This document shows, in pieces, positions 17,146-28,561 of a DNA stretch of 64,000 bases (the stretch's first letter is position 1; each line of letters starts with the position of its first letter). The position numbers were made by a program, and so were the translations under genes. Source of the stretch: Planctopirus ephydatiae (GTDB lineage Bacteria; Planctomycetota; Planctomycetia; Planctomycetales; Planctomycetaceae); contig NZ_CP036299.1 of the NCBI RefSeq assembly GCF_007752345.1, positions 1,875,001-1,939,000 on the forward strand, in the 5' to 3' direction. The notes below the pieces were generated by a model. The model was given only the letters and a program-made list of their open reading frames with translations, was not told the DNA's origin and searched no databases.

Positions 17146-19197
17146 CTACATTGGCGAAGCAGTCGCTGACTGTTCGGGATGTAATTGCCGCACTCGATAT
17201 TGAATATGCAGCTCACGCAGTGCTTCTCGATCGAGTAAAAGCTGCCGGCGATCCTCGACACTCAAACTCTCGGGTCCTTGAGTGAGTATGGCTTGAGTCC
17301 ATTCGCGAACTTTGGCTTCTGGAGCCGGGAGCCCTGCGGCTGTCTGCTGCAGGATCGAAGCATGCAAAGCTTGAAAGCCAGGGTCGGAAAGCAACTCCCC
17401 GAGTAACTGACTGCGATCATGCGCATTCGCGTACTGCTCATGCTGTTCCAGAGCACGCTGCTGCAGCTTGAGAATCGGTGTGAGTTCGGATTCTTCAGGA
17501 ATCAGGAGCAGTCGCCGATGAGCGAGCCATTGCCCAAGTTCGACACTGCCGAGAATTCTCGAGAAAGGAATAGTCAGCGTCAACCCGAGCAGAATGGGTG
17601 ACAACCACAAAAACAGGCCGGGGGCAAAGAAAAGGATCAAGGCACTTCCCACCAGCCCGGTCAATGTATGCGGGCCAAAAACCCGGCATGCAGCCAGAAA
17701 ATCAATATCGCCATCTCCCCGGTTCTGAGCATTCCACTGCACTTTCTCGCCCAATAAGGTAGAGATCACAAATCGCGTATGAAACAGCATCATGATGGGC
17801 GCCACCAGAACTGAGGCGGCAGTTTCGATCAGCACGCTGGGAATAATCTTTGACCAGCCTCCGAATTGTTCTCTTCGCGGACGATCAAACGCTAAAGCCA
17901 CCAGACTCCAGACCTTCGGTGCCATCAATAGAAACATGGTGAAAGCAAAGACCACCAGCCCGCTGATTCGTTCCTGAGTACTCCCTAGCCAGATCCCGTC
18001 GATCGCCATGGCCAATAGCCCCAGCAGCGTAAACAGCAGCCACAGAGGCGATGCGAGGTAAGACATCACGCCCATGGCCAGATGCAGACGGCTGATCGGC
18101 CTTAAACCTTCGCTGATAATCAGCCGCATGTGCTGTAGATTTCCCTGGCACCAGCGCTGATCTCGCTTCGCATAATCAAGCAATGTCGTGGGGCATTCTT
18201 CATAGCTCCCCGCCAGATCGTGCGCGAGAGCCACTTTCCAGCCACCGCGTGCCATCAGGGCGGCTTCTACGAAATCGTGACTCAGAATTTCGCCACCCAG
18301 TGGTGCCACGCCCGGGAGTGTGGGCAACCCGCAGTGATCAATAAAAGGAGCCACGCGGATAATCGCATTATGCCCCCAGTAGTTGCTGTCAAAGCTCGCC
18401 CACGAACTGAAGCCTTCCATGTGCACCGGGCTGTAAAGTCTGGCTGAGAACTGCTGCAGTCGAGCAAAAAATGAAAGCCGGTTCACAGGGACAGGTGGCA
18501 CCTGGAGAATTCCCAGAGCCGGATCATCCTGCATGCGACGGGCCATTTCGACCATCGTCTGGCCATCCATCACGCTGTCGGCATCGAGCACAATCATCAG
18601 GTCGTACTGTGTGCCCCAGCGTTCACAGAAATCAGCAATGTTCCCCGCCTTGCGTGCCGTATTTTTCGGCCGTCGGCGGTAAAATACATTGGTCGGGCCA
18701 GTCAGTCGCTGACAAAGGCGGCCCCACATCCGCTCCTCTTCCAGCCAGATATCCGGGTTCGTCGTATCACTGAGGACGAAGAGGTCAAAGTCCGCCGCAT
18801 GCGGTGTGGTGGCAAGCGATTCAATCATCGCCTGAACATTCGCGAACACACTGGCGGGAGTTTCATTGTAAACGGGCATCAGGATCGCCATTCTTGGTAA
18901 AGAACTGTGCGATGACTGCGAAGTCGATGCTGTCTGGCGACGTTGGGAGATCGTCAACCACAAACCAAGAGTGCTAGTCCAGAACGAGAAGGAAATGATC
19001 AGCACCAGCAGAGCGAATAAAGGCACCAACAGCCAAGTTGCCGGATTTTTAGAAATATCTCCCAACGACCACAAAAACAGCCAGATGGCAAAAGCGGTTG
19101 TCGTCAGAGTGAGCACAGCGAGCGACAGTCGAAAGCGACGACTTCCCGGCTGAGAAACCTGTGAGACCTTCAAAGGAGTGATGCTGCTGGCATTCAC
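17146..19197 (-). CDS. opgH: Osmoregulated periplasmic glucan glucosyltransferase
   Basis: Inner-membrane family 2 glycosyltransferase (683 aa) that makes the beta-1,2-linked glucan backbone from UDP-glucose and passes it to the periplasm. Two membrane segments lie near residues 25-45 and 55-80. The GT domain has AILMPVYNE, VLDADSVM (DxD), SHDFVEAALMARGGW and the acceptor-binding QRWCQGNLQH. Several membrane segments follow between about 370 and 560. It is shorter than E. coli OpgH (847 aa), mostly by lacking a long N-terminus. It lies downstream of opgG and an unknown gene on the same strand, with a 310-bp gap before it, so it may also have its own promoter. Confidence 0.9.
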   Translation of the reverse strand: MNASSITPLKVSQVSQPGSRRFRLSLAVLTLTTTAFAIWLFLWSLGDISKNPATWLLVPLFALLVLIISFSFWTSTLGLWLTISQRRQTASTSQSSHSSLPRMAILMPVYNETPASVFANVQAMIESLATTPHAADFDLFVLSDTTNPDIWLEEERMWGRLCQRLTGPTNVFYRRRPKNTARKAGNIADFCERWGTQYDLMIVLDADSVMDGQTMVEMARRMQDDPALGILQVPPVPVNRLSFFARLQQFSARLYSPVHMEGFSSWASFDSNYWGHNAIIRVAPFIDHCGLPTLPGVAPLGGEILSHDFVEAALMARGGWKVALAHDLAGSYEECPTTLLDYAKRDQRWCQGNLQHMRLIISEGLRPISRLHLAMGVMSYLASPLWLLFTLLGLLAMAIDGIWLGSTQERISGLVVFAFTMFLLMAPKVWSLVALAFDRPRREQFGGWSKIIPSVLIETAASVLVAPIMMLFHTRFVISTLLGEKVQWNAQNRGDGDIDFLAACRVFGPHTLTGLVGSALILFFAPGLFLWLSPILLGLTLTIPFSRILGSVELGQWLAHRRLLLIPEESELTPILKLQQRALEQHEQYANAHDRSQLLGELLSDPGFQALHASILQQTAAGLPAPEAKVREWTQAILTQGPESLSVEDRRQLLLDREALRELHIQYRVRQLHPEQSATASPM

Positions 19198-19507
19198 GAA
19201 TTTAATCCTGAGAGCATGAACCAGTCGCAGCTGTCTGTTGCACCCTCAACGGGGAACAAACAACGTCTGGTGGTGAAAAATGATTCCGTTGATCGAGCCA
19301 CTACCAATCCATCAGTCACTATCGAGGGACTTGCTTATCTCTGGCTCATAGAGACTCTTTTCAGACACTGCCTCTCGAAAACTCCCTTGGGAAAACTGTG
19401 TCCGCACCTGTTCGGAAGCCAATCGCAACATAAGACAAACTGGAGCGGGCATCCGATTTCCGAAGGCCCGCACCGTTCACCAGGTATCTTCCGCAAACAT
19501 TCTCAGC
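19198..19507. other. Gap upstream of opgH
   Basis: About 310 bp between the unknown opg-locus gene and opgH, both on the minus strand. I see no gene and no clear terminator; it may hold an opgH promoter. Confidence 0.5.
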
Positions 19508-20167
19508 TCAGCGGACAGGCTCAAGTCGCAGCTTGACGGTCGTGACCACCTGGCACAAATTCTTCCAGGCGCCTCGCCAGTAACCCTTGCGGAAGACTCG
19601 CAAGAGCTTGGGACGAAGTTGTGCCCGCATGGCAATTTTCTGGCTTTCCGGAGCCACATCACTGGGCCGAATTCTCACCATCGAAATCTGGGCCAGATGC
19701 GGCACAGCCCCCTGAAGCCGACGATCCAGATATCGCGAGCTATTGCTGTTTCCTAGTGTTTTGCTACTCGCTTCCACGCCTTCAGCGAGTTCCGCAGGTG
19801 CCTCCTGCAGTTCCGCTGTTCCCCCATTCGAACCCCCCGGAATCACAGTCATTTTTCCCGAGAAGTCCTTTGCTCCAGGAAACAGTTCCACGGTCGATTC
19901 GAGCTCGCGCAAAGCCAGCCTCAAGGCAGCTTCACACAACTCGGCAGCACTGTAAGGATGATGTTCCCCATCCATCCCTGCAGGTTGCGTATCTTCCAGA
20001 AGCTGTTCAGCCTCTTCGACAAATCGCTTCGAGAGCGACGACAGCAGATCGGGATGCCGGATCCCTGCATCTCGGAGATAGTCGGCCACATGGCAGCGGG
20101 CAACAATCTGTGCGGAGCTTCCCAGATCAACCGGTGAGTCTTCAACTGCGAAAGCAACCATGATCAT
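19508..20167 (-). CDS. Unknown protein coupled to opgG
   Basis: A 219-residue protein that I do not recognise. Its ATG overlaps the opgG stop (ATGA at 20164-20167), which implies translational coupling. It has no signal peptide or membrane span. The first ~110 residues look helical and acidic (DLLSSLSKRFVEEAEQLLED). The middle is Gly/Ala/Glu-rich, and the last ~60 residues are basic (RPKLLRVFRKGYWRGAWKN). The frame is open upstream into opgG but no start there is plausible. Position between opgG and opgH suggests a role in periplasmic glucan synthesis, perhaps as a cytoplasmic regulator or accessory; that is inference from context only. Confidence 0.7.
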   Translation of the reverse strand: MIMVAFAVEDSPVDLGSSAQIVARCHVADYLRDAGIRHPDLLSSLSKRFVEEAEQLLEDTQPAGMDGEHHPYSAAELCEAALRLALRELESTVELFPGAKDFSGKMTVIPGGSNGGTAELQEAPAELAEGVEASSKTLGNSNSSRYLDRRLQGAVPHLAQISMVRIRPSDVAPESQKIAMRAQLRPKLLRVFRKGYWRGAWKNLCQVVTTVKLRLEPVR

Positions 20168-21849
20168 CGAGATGTCTCCTGTTGATTCTGTTGAACACGC
20201 CACGGTGGCAAAACCACCGGGGGAGCCTCCAACGGGCACAGATAACTCCATCGTTCTGTGATGGGCTGGCCTTCATCGCTCAGCCGGGCAATCAATTCCA
20301 GGGGGCCTTCACCTGTCGGTTCGGCAACAAGATGCAGTACCCACTGCTGATCTGAAACTTTTTCAATCCGCTGAGAAGTGATCGCACAGCGGATCGAGAT
20401 CAGTTCCAGATTCACTTTCTCCGGATTCGCTTCTGCAAGACGTGCGCCAGTTAGATCGACTCGAAAGACAAACTTCTTGGGACTTTCCCGAACCAGATCA
20501 ACAGCCGTGACTTTCGCCTGTTGATGTTCGGGCGGATCACCGCCAAAAAAACTGACTCGATACTTCAGATCCAGTGGCTGACCAACGACCGGCTTCTGAT
20601 CAGGGACCCACCACGTTGCCACGTTATCGATCCCCTCATGTTCCGCTGGCAACTCCAGGAGTTCCAGAGCCCCCTTCTCCCACGGAACCTGTGGTTCGAT
20701 CCAGACACTGGGACGCTCCGAATACCGCGCCTCATCATCTTTGTAATGCTCGGAATTTCGATCGCGCTGAATGACGCCAAAGCCCGCGAGCTTTTCAAAC
20801 GGGTATCGCACCAGCGATGGGTAATTCTGCCTGTAAAAACTTCTCCAGGCCCACTGACCATCGCCACCCTTCATCAGCAAACCGTCGGCATCATGCACTT
20901 CGGGGCGGTGATCGCCTTTGGGACCTGCCAACGCATCACCCCACATCCACATGCTGGTTAAGGGCGCGATCCCCAACTTCTCGGGAACTTTGCGGAAATG
21001 CAGACGAGCCGTCACATCAAAGGTGGTCGCCTGAACTCCAGGAGTCATCACGAACTGATAAGCCCCCGCCACACTCTCGCTATCAAGCAGCGCCAGAAAG
21101 GTCAGCGACAAATCGCCCGGCTTCGGTTGTTGCACATAAAACGCCCGAAAGACCGGAAACTCTTCCGCCTTAGGCAGCCCGCAGTTAATCGCCAAGCCTC
21201 GGGCCGACGAGCCCCAGACCGTCTTCTCGCTGTGAGCCCGGAAGTAACTGGCACCCACAAACGAGGCGACTTCCGAATACTGCGGATTGCCCGGGAAAAA
21301 TCCAATGAAGCGGACGCCCGCATAACCAAGATCGGCCGGCAAATCCCCCGCCTTCAAATCGCCTTCGTACTTGAAATGAGCCTTATCGAATTCAACCAGT
21401 CTGGGCCTGACAGAATTCTGGGCGGCGACTCCCAATCCCAGAGATTCCAACAAGTAGAGCTGCACCTGATCTTTGTGCACGAACCCACGATGGAAGGTCT
21501 GCAACCAATAAGGTCGCTTCTCATCCAGCCAGAAACTTCGCTCTGGCCGAAAGCGAATCATCCGATGCTGATCATAAGTCATCTCGGCCAGCGATTGCGG
21601 CAAAGGATCTGTCGGGAGAACGGGACCTTTCGCCAGTTCACTGGCCACAAGATCCAGATCTGCAAAAGACTGCACATGGCTCATCCGACTCTCCAGCTTG
21701 GGAGGTGAATCGTTCGCCATGCTAACAAAAGTCATGCTGCAGAAAAACAGCGTTTTGGAAAATACGGCAGCCATGCGTCCTGCTTTGGCAAACAGTGACT
21801 CAGGCAACAGAGAGTCCATCACGCGAGCGGCAAGCGTGGGATTCAACAT
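20164..21849 (-). CDS. opgG: Periplasmic glucan biosynthesis protein OpgG/OpgD
   Basis: Periplasmic protein of the MdoG family (561 aa) that acts on the glucan backbone made by OpgH, introducing branches or shaping the glucan. The N-terminus has a signal peptide around MAAVFSKTLFFCSMTFVSMA. Family motifs include FWLDEKRPYWLQTFHRGF, FDKAHFKYEG, GYAGVRF, FVGASYFRA, SMWMWG and RPEVHDADGLLM, followed by the Ig-like C-terminal domain. Assignment as OpgG rather than OpgD rests on linkage to opgH. It is the first gene of the locus. The start could also be the ATG at 21774, just before the hydrophobic segment. Confidence 0.9.
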   Translation of the reverse strand: MLNPTLAARVMDSLLPESLFAKAGRMAAVFSKTLFFCSMTFVSMANDSPPKLESRMSHVQSFADLDLVASELAKGPVLPTDPLPQSLAEMTYDQHRMIRFRPERSFWLDEKRPYWLQTFHRGFVHKDQVQLYLLESLGLGVAAQNSVRPRLVEFDKAHFKYEGDLKAGDLPADLGYAGVRFIGFFPGNPQYSEVASFVGASYFRAHSEKTVWGSSARGLAINCGLPKAEEFPVFRAFYVQQPKPGDLSLTFLALLDSESVAGAYQFVMTPGVQATTFDVTARLHFRKVPEKLGIAPLTSMWMWGDALAGPKGDHRPEVHDADGLLMKGGDGQWAWRSFYRQNYPSLVRYPFEKLAGFGVIQRDRNSEHYKDDEARYSERPSVWIEPQVPWEKGALELLELPAEHEGIDNVATWWVPDQKPVVGQPLDLKYRVSFFGGDPPEHQQAKVTAVDLVRESPKKFVFRVDLTGARLAEANPEKVNLELISIRCAITSQRIEKVSDQQWVLHLVAEPTGEGPLELIARLSDEGQPITERWSYLCPLEAPPVVLPPWRVQQNQQETSR

Positions 21850-24163: not shown

Positions 24164-24244
24164 GTTCCAGTACGTTGGTTCCGCAGGTCAGTATCCCTCG
24201 CCACAAGTTCCGTTACGTTCCCAGCGACAAAAGTGCCCGGTGAC

Positions 24245-25159
24245 ATGACAGATCAGAACCATCACTCGTCAGCACTTGCTCAAACCGGGAATGTGCACCT
24301 GGGAGTGACCCCTTACAACTTTCTCACGAGTCTGCTCGTGGTGCTGATCTGTGGGCTGGCGTTTTCACTCGCGGGGCTGGTGATCTATTTCGGTTCCATT
24401 CGTCCCGTCAAAATCATCGAAGTCGTTCCCGTCGAAATGCTCGAACTTCCGGGCGGCTCGGAAGATGGAACTCCTGATGAATCGTTACGCGTCGAGAACG
24501 AATTCCCCGAAACGAATGATGCCTCACCCGCCGAGATCCCTTCCGATGTTGCCGAAGTGGCAGAAACCATCGAAAAAATGCTCGACGTCTCCGATCAATC
24601 GACCGAACTCGTCGAGCAGCAGTTTGATCTCGGGATTCAGAACTCCGGAAAAGTCGGGAGTGCCCGCGGCACAGGGGCCCGCGGCTTAGGCAAAGGTCCC
24701 GGCAAGGGGGGACTTTCGCGAGAACAACGCTGGTATGTCAGCTTCAATGACAGACTGACGGCTGACGAATACGCCAGACAACTCGAATCTTTTGGCATTG
24801 AGCTGGGAGCAATTGAGCCGGATGGGACTGTCAGCTATCTGAGTCGCCCGGCAACGAGCCCCAATGTCCGCCGGGGCCCCTCAGCAGCCGAAACACGCCT
24901 CTTCATGTCCTGGCGAGGCGGCAATCGCAAGCAACTCGACCAGGAACTCCTGACCCGCAATGGCATCACAGTACGTGACGACACTCTGATTGTGCACTTC
25001 TACCCGGCGCAACTGGAGCAATCGATGCTCCGCATGGAACAGGACTTTCAACACCGCCCCATCGAATCCATCCGCCGGACATACTTCGAAGTGACGCAGA
25101 AAGACGGAAAATACCAGTTCATCGTCATCCGCCAGATATTGAATACGGCGGGGAAGTAG
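24245..25159 (+). CDS. Single-span membrane protein, unknown function
   Basis: A ~304-residue protein I do not recognise. One hydrophobic segment (about residues 25-50) follows a short polar N-terminus. Then come an acidic linker (LELPGGSEDGTPDES), a Gly-rich stretch (RGTGARGLGKGPGKGG, near 150) and a folded-looking domain of about 130 residues starting RWYVSFNDRLT. The layout resembles TonB/TolA-like proteins of Planctomycetes, but no exbB/exbD genes are adjacent. ATG 24245 is preferred; a GTG at 24233 is in frame. It follows the decarboxylase by about 80 bp and may be cotranscribed. Confidence 0.65.
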   Translation: MTDQNHHSSALAQTGNVHLGVTPYNFLTSLLVVLICGLAFSLAGLVIYFGSIRPVKIIEVVPVEMLELPGGSEDGTPDESLRVENEFPETNDASPAEIPSDVAEVAETIEKMLDVSDQSTELVEQQFDLGIQNSGKVGSARGTGARGLGKGPGKGGLSREQRWYVSFNDRLTADEYARQLESFGIELGAIEPDGTVSYLSRPATSPNVRRGPSAAETRLFMSWRGGNRKQLDQELLTRNGITVRDDTLIVHFYPAQLEQSMLRMEQDFQHRPIESIRRTYFEVTQKDGKYQFIVIRQILNTAGK

Positions 25160-27463: not shown

Positions 27464-28561
27464 ATGAATCATCCCCAAACAGAAACGACCTTTCGATTCT
27501 GGGGATGGGTGCTGATGGCTATAGCGTGGCCCCTGGGACTTGCGCTGCAGGCCTCGGTCTGGGTGGAAGATCGTGCCCTATCGCCAGCTACTGCCATGGG
27601 ACAGGAACCGGCACAGGCTCGCCAGCCTGCTGTCGAGTTTTCGGCCAAGAAAATCGCGTCGGCTCACCTGGAAAATCTGCATCACATTGAGTTAAAGCCT
27701 GCTCAAGCATCAGCGAATCAACAGGCCGTCAACAAACAGGCCATTTGGTTTGGTGGCAGTCCAGAGACAGAGGCGGCCATGGCGGAGTTGGCGGCCTCAG
27801 GTGTAAAGACGATTGTCTCCGTCGATGGAGCGCCGCCACTGGTCGAACTGGCGAAAAAACATGGCCTCCAATACGTCCATATCCCGGTCAAGTACTCGGC
27901 TCTCTCGCGCGACCAGATCGTTTCGCTCGCCGCAGTGTTGCAGCGAAATCGCGAGCCGGTCTATGTCCATTGCCATCACGGCAAACATCGCGGGCCGGCA
28001 GCACTCGTCGCGGCACTCAAGTGCACCGTGACCGATCTGGAAACCGACACCTTACTCAAAACGTTCGGCACCGATCCGAAGTACCGCGGGCTCTACGAAG
28101 CTGCTCGCACAGCGCAACCGCTTCAAGCTCATGAACTCGCCCGGGTGCCGGAGAAACTGCCGGAAGCGATCCAGGATCTTTCGCCCGCGAGGTTGATGTC
28201 CGAAATCGACTGCAGCTTCGATCAACTGCTGGCCTTGCGAAAAGTGGGCGAGCCGCTGGAGAACAAAGAGTTACCTGCGCAGCTCAAAACCTGGCAGGAA
28301 CAGGCAATTGATCTTGAAGAAGCATTTCGGGAATACCAGCGACTGCTGGAGCCACAATTCCCCATGATGCCGCCTGAGCAGCAGGCGCAATATCGACAAT
28401 TCCTCAAAACCTCCCTGAGCCATGCAGCAGCAATTCGCAGTGAACTTTCCAAGGCTGTGGACACTCCGGAAGAGATGCCAGCACGACTGAAAACATACCG
28501 CACGAACCTCGAAGCCTTACAGCAATCGTGTGCAGGCTGTCATGCTCAATTTCGTAATTGA
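27464..28561 (+). CDS. Exported tyrosine/dual-specificity phosphatase-like domain joined to cytochrome c'-like heme domain
   Basis: A 365-residue protein with two recognisable signatures. A hydrophobic N-terminus (about residues 8-28) suggests export. The middle has the fold pattern of small dual-specificity phosphatases: GVKTIVSVDG, then VHCHHGKHRGPAA with Cys170 and Arg176 in CX5R spacing. The last third is predicted helical, ending in CAGCHAQFRN, a CxxCH heme c site (Cys356, Cys359, His360) placed near the C-terminus as in cytochrome c'. ATG 27464 has GGAG upstream; a TTG at 27443 is an alternative. I infer a periplasmic heme protein with a phosphatase-like fold; whether it is an active phosphatase is unknown. 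Confidence 0.8.
   Translation: MNHPQTETTFRFWGWVLMAIAWPLGLALQASVWVEDRALSPATAMGQEPAQARQPAVEFSAKKIASAHLENLHHIELKPAQASANQQAVNKQAIWFGGSPETEAAMAELAASGVKTIVSVDGAPPLVELAKKHGLQYVHIPVKYSALSRDQIVSLAAVLQRNREPVYVHCHHGKHRGPAALVAALKCTVTDLETDTLLKTFGTDPKYRGLYEAARTAQPLQAHELARVPEKLPEAIQDLSPARLMSEIDCSFDQLLALRKVGEPLENKELPAQLKTWQEQAIDLEEAFREYQRLLEPQFPMMPPEQQAQYRQFLKTSLSHAAAIRSELSKAVDTPEEMPARLKTYRTNLEALQQSCAGCHAQFRN

Follow-up and report, generated by a model that had tools for sequence, protein, structure and literature searches.

A probably exported planctomycete protein with a tyrosine-phosphatase-like domain and a predicted class II cytochrome c domain in one reading frame

PRL phosphatases (PTP4A) are eukaryotic, intracellular proteins, and the inositol pyrophosphate phosphatases PFA-DSP1 and Siw14 are cytoplasmic eukaryotic enzymes with a P-loop of the form HCxxGKHR and a Thr after its Arg. 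Among the class II cytochromes c, the sixth-ligand position of the heme is occupied in c556 and NaxLS. To our knowledge, the PRLs, PFA-DSP1, Siw14 and the DUF442 and BLH families are without heme, and cytochrome c', c556 and NaxLS are small cytochromes without a PTP domain. Nearly all CC1 phosphatases carry a Ser or Thr after the P-loop Arg, which hydrolyses the phosphocysteine, and the PRLs have an Ala there and form a long-lived phosphocysteine (PMC10040874, excerpt). For TpbA, the periplasmic dual-specificity phosphatase of Pseudomonas aeruginosa, Asp105 was proposed as the general acid, and the catalytic efficiency of a D105A mutant was down by only 53% (PMC4409338, excerpt). The sixth heme position of cytochrome c' is vacant, with Tyr-16 beside the heme in PHCP and a Leu in AXCP, and some members of this fold family bind NO and CO (PMC5368077, excerpt); background on NaxLS is given in part of a paper on anammox cytochromes (PMC8388095).

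In a 64,000-nucleotide stretch of the Planctopirus ephydatiae genome, hereafter the window, we analyzed a gene that joins domains of these two kinds (Table 1). Its open reading frame starts with an ATG at 27464 and ends with a stop codon at 28559-28561. An earlier note on this DNA, made from the letters, had described a hydrophobic N-terminus and named Cys170, Arg176, Cys356, Cys359 and His360; all of these positions were verified in the translation. Compared with its close relatives at loci L031 and L002, the gene differs at codon positions 1/2/3 by 14/13/45 and 22/27/65 nucleotides, respectively, an excess at third positions that is the expected pattern for a translated gene. One match to the fusion gene is present in its own genome, a single contig of 5.2 Mb. 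When 392 Planctomycetota genomes were searched, 178 contained a match at E <= 0.001. The family counts refer to the 150 matches listed from this search (30 loci and 120 regions), weaker unlisted ones being left out; four of the 150 run off their contig, and the 146 with complete 3' ends were counted. Proteins with a CxxCH at most 60 residues from the C-terminus were defined as heme-fused, a definition in which the other conserved residues play no part. By this measure, 132 of the 146 listed matches are heme-fused and 14 are heme-less. Heme-fused proteins occur in at least 131 of the 392 genomes, and one genome (G100) has two.

Table 1. Features of the fusion gene in the window (positions are those of the window; residues are those of the encoded protein).
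Feature	Position	Strand	Basis
Complete gene for the fusion of a PTP-like and a class II cytochrome c domain, product probably exported	27464..28561	+	365 aa + stop; family conservation
Hydrophobic helix at the N-terminus, residues 6-38, either a signal peptide or an anchor in the membrane	27479..27577	+	AlphaFold2 helix
Predicted PTP/DSP-fold domain, residues 64-227	27653..28144	+	Pfam; AlphaFold2 and VIA-align; TpbA profile match
Asp121, end of SVDG strand	27824..27826	+	D in 130/132 heme-fused; R in 9/14 heme-less (matches listed)
Ser145, aligned with TpbA general acid Asp105	27896..27898	+	D in 73/132 family members (matches listed)
P-loop HCHHGKHRG, residues 169-177	27968..27994	+	C170, G173, R176 in 132/132 (matches listed)
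Predicted four-helix bundle of the class II cytochrome c type, residues 238-365	28175..28558	+	AlphaFold2; profile matches; NaxLS 6r6n fold match
Met245, predicted sixth (distal) heme ligand	28196..28198	+	132/132 (matches listed); alignments to c-556, b562, Kusta0087
CAGCH motif for attachment of heme c (Cys356, Cys359, proximal His360)	28529..28543	+	Sequence

Four Pfam families matched the window protein above their cut-offs, namely PTP-NADK (4e-10), Tc-R-P (3.7e-8), PTP-SAK (1.3e-7) and BLH_phosphatase (PF04273, 7.6e-7). The name Tc-R-P mentions toxins; no other sign of a link to polymorphic toxins was seen. A profile of 75 family members found TpbA as the best sequence relative of solved structure in the PDB (4.5e-11). 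Run on a 75-member alignment, AlphaFold2 predicted both a PTP and a heme fold for the full protein with a mean pLDDT of 89.0 and a pTM of 0.80, the models being heme-free. VIA-align superimposed residues 57-227 of the model on TpbA (4r0s) with a Z of 16.0 and an rmsd of 2.9 over 152 aligned residues; VHZ, Siw14, PFA-DSP1, DUF442 and PRL structures were also matched in similar residue ranges. By its predicted fold and the CX5R P-loop at a strand-loop-helix, the fusion family belongs to the PTP/DSP superfamily. This membership stands despite a Gly or Ala at residue 177, directly after the P-loop Arg, in 107 of the 132 listed heme-fused proteins, because the PRLs are an accepted exception.

For the C-terminal domain, the Cytochrome C' family (PF01322) gave an E of 0.028 with the window protein alone, which is below the Pfam cut-off, while 59 of 75 aligned family members matched it at E <= 0.01. 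A profile of this domain found solved structures of cytochromes c' (1.6e-6), a b562-type chain (2.7e-6) and c-556 (1e-4). Modelled alone, residues 231-365 yielded a four-helix bundle (pLDDT 90.8, pTM 0.84), for which a chain of Kuenenia NaxLS (6r6n) was the best natural heme protein by structural alignment (Z 14.1, rmsd 1.8, 105 aligned). Designed bundles (Z 15.5 and 14.5) rank above NaxLS, and Foldseek with the heme domain alone returned nothing at E <= 0.001, focal-adhesion-targeting bundles being ranked first, so that the fold is supportive and by itself no proof of kinship with cytochromes. The stronger evidence for this kinship is the sequence profile together with CxxCHxxxR. With its predicted four-helix bundle and its C-terminal CxxCH, the domain is assigned to the class II cytochromes c. 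Both domains that had been proposed beforehand, the PTP-like one and the cytochrome c'-type four-helix heme domain, were recovered by structure prediction as well as by family and profile matches. The genome of P. ephydatiae contains three further PF01322 matches, one of them above the curated cut-off (L231, L232 and L233, near 4473171, 2180023 and 2406934); by eye, these proteins are without an HCX5R loop.

The homologues keep both motifs. Cys170, Gly173, Arg176, Tyr144, Pro100, Pro141 and Met245 are each found in all 132 listed heme-fused proteins, and His172 (128), His175 (129) and Arg364 (131) are near-invariant in the same listed set. Since Cys170 and Arg176 are kept in every one of these listed proteins, a chance fusion is ruled out, and read-through was rejected on the same joint conservation; the pairing first noticed in one sequence is widespread and conserved. 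A separate contig scan, which used YVHCHHGK as one pattern, gave 110 loci, and after removal of four open-ended ORFs and five duplicates 101 non-redundant proteins were left. The P-loop invariance in this set of 101 is partly built in, because YVHCHHGK served as a search pattern.

Of the 14 heme-less relatives among the matches listed, 10 have the ordinary loop HCxHGxDRTG and are without Asp121 and Tyr144 in the alignment. The other four (L111, L112, L113 and L119) have other loops, three of which are close to the heme-type loop. When the PTP domains were placed on an unrooted FastTree, the best-splitting branch separated 131 of the 132 heme-fused proteins from the 14 heme-less ones plus L116, with a local support of 0.876. 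As the tree split and the loop types coincide, the special P-loop and the heme domain are linked in evolution, with a few exceptions. L116 (G270:C1:1253751-1256236) is a divergent heme-bearing locus with a sodium/calcium-exchanger-like stretch (by eye), a divergent PTP domain (TCETGRDR) and a CxxCH cytochrome in one frame; it may be a fusion to a transporter or two genes joined by read-through. L113 (G143:C171:11416-12952) carries the heme-type loop HCHHGKHRGG, and CxxCH is absent from every frame of the locus; by eye, its C-terminal part resembles a second, degenerate PTP-like domain at the place of the cytochrome. Verrucomicrobiota-type titles were found on 13 of the 80 kept loci of the pattern-based contig scan. 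In a phylum sample around G392, a record titled Verrucomicrobia, one of 194 genomes matched at E <= 1e-8, namely G392 itself, suggesting that the family is rare in this phylum.

The residues that assist catalysis in known enzymes are less uniform. At position 145, 73 of the 132 listed heme-fused proteins have Asp and the rest mostly Lys, Ser, Arg, Asn, His or Ala, with Ser in the window protein. Residue 177 is Gly in 104, Ser in 25 and Ala in 3 of the same 132 listed proteins, and Thr in none. Asp145 and Ser177 are both absent from 53 of the 132, including the window protein, and both present in 19 (among the matches listed). Ordinary dephosphorylation is doubtful, since neither the Asp aligned with the general acid nor a Ser/Thr following the P-loop Arg is conserved and the window protein lacks both. 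Residue 121 is acidic in 131 of the 132 listed heme-fused proteins (130 Asp, 1 Glu), and Asp121 could act as a replacement general acid. Position 171 of the P-loop is His in 91, Phe in 37, Tyr in 3 and Glu in 1 of the 132 listed, and the His (91) and Phe/Tyr (40) types may represent two substrate subgroups.

The view that the protein is an ordinary periplasmic protein (tyrosine) phosphatase like TpbA, with the cytochrome as an accessory for localisation, stability or mild redox regulation, would be in line with TpbA, a periplasmic DSP, being both the best solved sequence relative and a top fold match. It would also agree with the invariant Cys and Arg, with the acidic residue 121, and with the annotation of a copy in Aquisphaera as 'dual specificity protein phosphatase'. 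The absence of a general-acid Asp is not fatal to it, because the D105A mutant of TpbA kept much of its efficiency, as described above (PMC4409338, excerpt). The incomplete conservation of Asp145, the hydroxyl after the Arg in only 25 of the 132 listed proteins (all Ser) and the 53 in which both are missing argue against it, however, as does the invariance of Met245, which equals that of the catalytic Cys and would not be predicted by a mere accessory role. Overall, we consider a conventional phosphatase somewhat unlikely.

Met245 forms the sole invariant Met column among the matches listed (132/132; the next best column has 72). It is residue 15 of the domain model, lies within helix 11-30 and is invariant in 74/74 alignment rows. 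In a weak phmmer match (E 0.026), it aligned with Met12 of the Rhodopseudomonas cytochrome c-556 1s05. The structural alignments start with domain residue 9 on residue 1 of b562-type chains and with domain residue 8 on residue 25 of Kusta0087; assuming a gapless first helix, these offsets place Met245 on residue 7 of b562 and on residue 32 of Kusta0087. Met7, at the position matched by Met245, is the known heme ligand of b562. Residue 32 of NaxLS is a Cys according to the titles of 6r6n and 6r6o, which name the mutants C32M and C32G, and this Cys32 is presumably a heme ligand as well. The register is not uniform: the sequence profile paired b562 residue 7 three residues after Met245, out of structural register, the match of the C-terminal domain profile to 1s05 stops short of the Met, and the structural offsets of cytochrome c' chains relative to Met245 vary by a few residues.

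The invariant Met of the fusion family thus aligns with the vacant sixth position of cytochrome c' or within a few residues of it. Because Met245 is invariant and aligned with a sixth ligand, the heme is probably of the Met/His electron-transfer type and not that of a gas-binding cytochrome c'. As expected of a cytochrome c556 (class IIb), the first helix carries a Met where the ligand would sit, with the weakness of the c-556 match borne in mind, and we predict a heme that is probably six-coordinate, Met/His-ligated and class II c556-like, in a register that is somewhat doubtful. The earlier note had suggested that NO or CO might be the ligands of the heme, in which case a gas sensor would control the phosphatase. 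Such a role would suit a domain of the cytochrome c' fold family, of which some members bind these gases (PMC5368077, excerpt), and Arg364 of CxxCHxxxR is nearly always kept, as in cytochrome c'. In the alignments, however, the invariant Met falls close to the site left vacant in cytochrome c' (PMC5368077, excerpt), and it would need to be displaced for NO or CO to bind. Gas binding is therefore unsupported, and we regard a gas sensor as very improbable.

A hydrophobic segment N-terminal to the PTP domain was found in 128 of 131 relatives among the matches listed, using a simple hydropathy rule on open frames. Lipobox-like sequences occur in 55 of 131 relatives by one rule, and a second rule based on the aligned Cys counts 70 of 132 (among the matches listed), suggesting that many family members are probably lipoproteins. 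The predicted N-terminal helix and these segments support the view, already taken in the earlier note, that the fusion protein is probably exported. Export fits with covalent attachment of heme, and PF01578, a family of cytochrome c assembly proteins, has two matches above cut-off in the same genome. The next-best Cys column after the conserved ones, with 96 of 132 listed proteins, is the N-terminal lipobox-like Cys; in a column survey of the listed heme-fused proteins, Cys170 was the only conserved Cys of the mature part outside the heme motif. A disulfide switch of the PRL/PTEN type was rejected for this reason.

A lone conserved non-heme Cys beside a predicted electron-transfer heme would also suit a sulfur-handling enzyme of the DUF442/Blh kind, in which the P-loop Cys takes up sulfur as a persulfide or thiosulfonate and the heme removes electrons. 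BLH_phosphatase is above its Pfam cut-off, the DUF442 structures 3gxg/3gxh were matched, and sub-threshold NCBIfam matches were obtained with the TIGR01244 sulfur transferase (1.1e-5) and Blh (3.1e-6). These matches, however, reach 25.4 bits against a cut-off of 85.85 for TIGR01244 and 26.3 bits against 625 for Blh, and TpbA stands above DUF442 in the family profile ranking. With the exception of a single sulfatase, no family of sulfur metabolism is present among the 25 of 67 neighbour families listed. A sulfur-handling enzyme is accordingly improbable in our view.

The gene surroundings gave no conserved partner. ORFs near the 80 kept loci of the pattern-based contig scan were selected by length and grouped with BLASTP; no neighbour proved conserved, the largest clusters covering 6 of the 80 loci. 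When 53 of the 56 nearby neighbours on the same strand were scanned with Pfam, no family occurred in more than two, among the 25 of 67 families listed. In the window, the neighbours of the fusion gene are a TPP enzyme, a prolyl-oligopeptidase/esterase-like protein, an SDR and an FHA protein, and they suggest no function for it. Close relatives keep the local synteny with the window, which carries little information. No PADLOC match was obtained at E <= 1, and a defence-system reading was rejected on this ground.

Upstream of the esterase-like gene, the window encodes a protein of 308 aa (24233-25159, + strand) that begins with a hydrophobic stretch and has a part rich in glycine, and for which a Pfam scan found no family above cut-off. 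On the minus strand, at 17146-21849, a protein for periplasmic glucan biosynthesis, MdoG (6.7e-145), is encoded close to a glycosyltransferase of family 2, possibly an osmoregulated periplasmic glucan pathway in a planctomycete. A plasmid collection contained two copies of the fusion gene, one in Aquisphaera giovannonii (pOJF2_1, L236) and one in Planctomyces sp. SH-PL62 (pPL62-1, L237). Both plasmids are large; on pPL62-1, genes for cytochrome c oxidase subunits lie ~2 kb away from the fusion gene, and a DUF3365 protein is encoded nearby. Since the Aquisphaera copy is named as a phosphatase and the SH-PL62 copy as a 'hypothetical protein', the heme half is invisible in annotation.

Alignments and models give two predicted folds, a Cys/Arg loop and a Met alongside CxxCH that are both invariant, and joint inheritance of these parts; on this basis, the best reading is that thiol chemistry may be coupled to the redox state of the heme. 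In the form we tentatively favour, to which we give somewhat less than an even chance, the protein is an exported, slow-turnover cysteine P-loop enzyme or sensor coupled to a Met/His electron-transfer heme. The P-loop would bind phosphate-like or other oxyanions, and Cys170 would form a covalent adduct. Turnover of this adduct would be slow because most members lack the Ser/Thr that normally hydrolyses phosphocysteine and the residue aligned with the general acid is unconserved. The heme would exchange single electrons with a periplasmic carrier and so tie the state of Cys170, or of the adduct on it, to redox conditions outside the cytoplasm, and the output could be a redox-gated slow phosphatase or sensor, or a cysteine-based oxidoreductase. 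Against slow turnover stand the acidic residue 121 and the 19 listed proteins with both Asp145 and Ser177. The neighbour survey without a conserved partner, the non-uniform register of Met245 and the single conserved non-heme Cys count against the proposal as a whole.

A bolder version, in which the phosphatase fold carries a redox enzyme in the periplasm of many Planctomycetota, seems unlikely to us; here the P-loop Cys would form a covalent adduct with a substrate, either an oxyanion or a sulfur compound, and electrons would be injected or removed directly by the fused Met/His heme. Were thiol and heme coupled, the family would provide a cysteine-phosphatase-fold protein with its own covalent heme, which would be either a phosphatase under redox control outside the cytoplasm or a phosphatase fold recruited for electron transfer.

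The earlier note knew of no described system with this pairing, and nothing was found in open-licence papers on the P-loop string, on GKHRTG or on a phosphatase-cytochrome pairing. Both parts are of known kinds; the fusion, its spread and its special P-loop are absent from the open-licence literature searched and represent a new combination. TpbA (4r0s, 2m3v) has the PTP fold, export and the HCxHGxxR loop in common with the fusion family. TpbA has no heme domain, a Thr after the P-loop Arg and Asp105 as its proposed acid, whereas the family has Gly, Ser or Ala after the Arg and an aligned Asp in just over half of the listed proteins. The PRLs likewise resemble the family in their PTP fold, and the Ser/Thr after the Arg is absent from most listed fusion members. 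PRLs end in a C-terminal prenylation motif (PMC10040874, excerpt), while the fusion proteins end in the heme motif CxxCHxxxR, and the PRL combination of a prenylation motif with Ala after the Arg does not occur in the family, where residue 177 is rarely Ala among the matches listed. PFA-DSP1 and Siw14 have a PTP fold like that of the window protein (6byf, Z 15.0; 7mog, Z 14.9). DUF442/BLH phosphatase-like proteins (TIGR01244) also have this fold in common with it, and the window protein passes the PF04273 cut-off and fails the curated cut-off of TIGR01244. With the class II cytochromes c, namely cytochrome c', c556 and NaxLS Kusta0087/0088, the fusion has in common the predicted four-helix bundle, a CxxCH close to the C-terminus and, four residues beyond its His, an Arg. 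The aligned sixth-ligand position appears to be occupied in the fusion family, by Met245, as it is in c556 and in NaxLS, where it corresponds to Cys32. In cytochrome c' this position is vacant (PMC5368077, excerpt).
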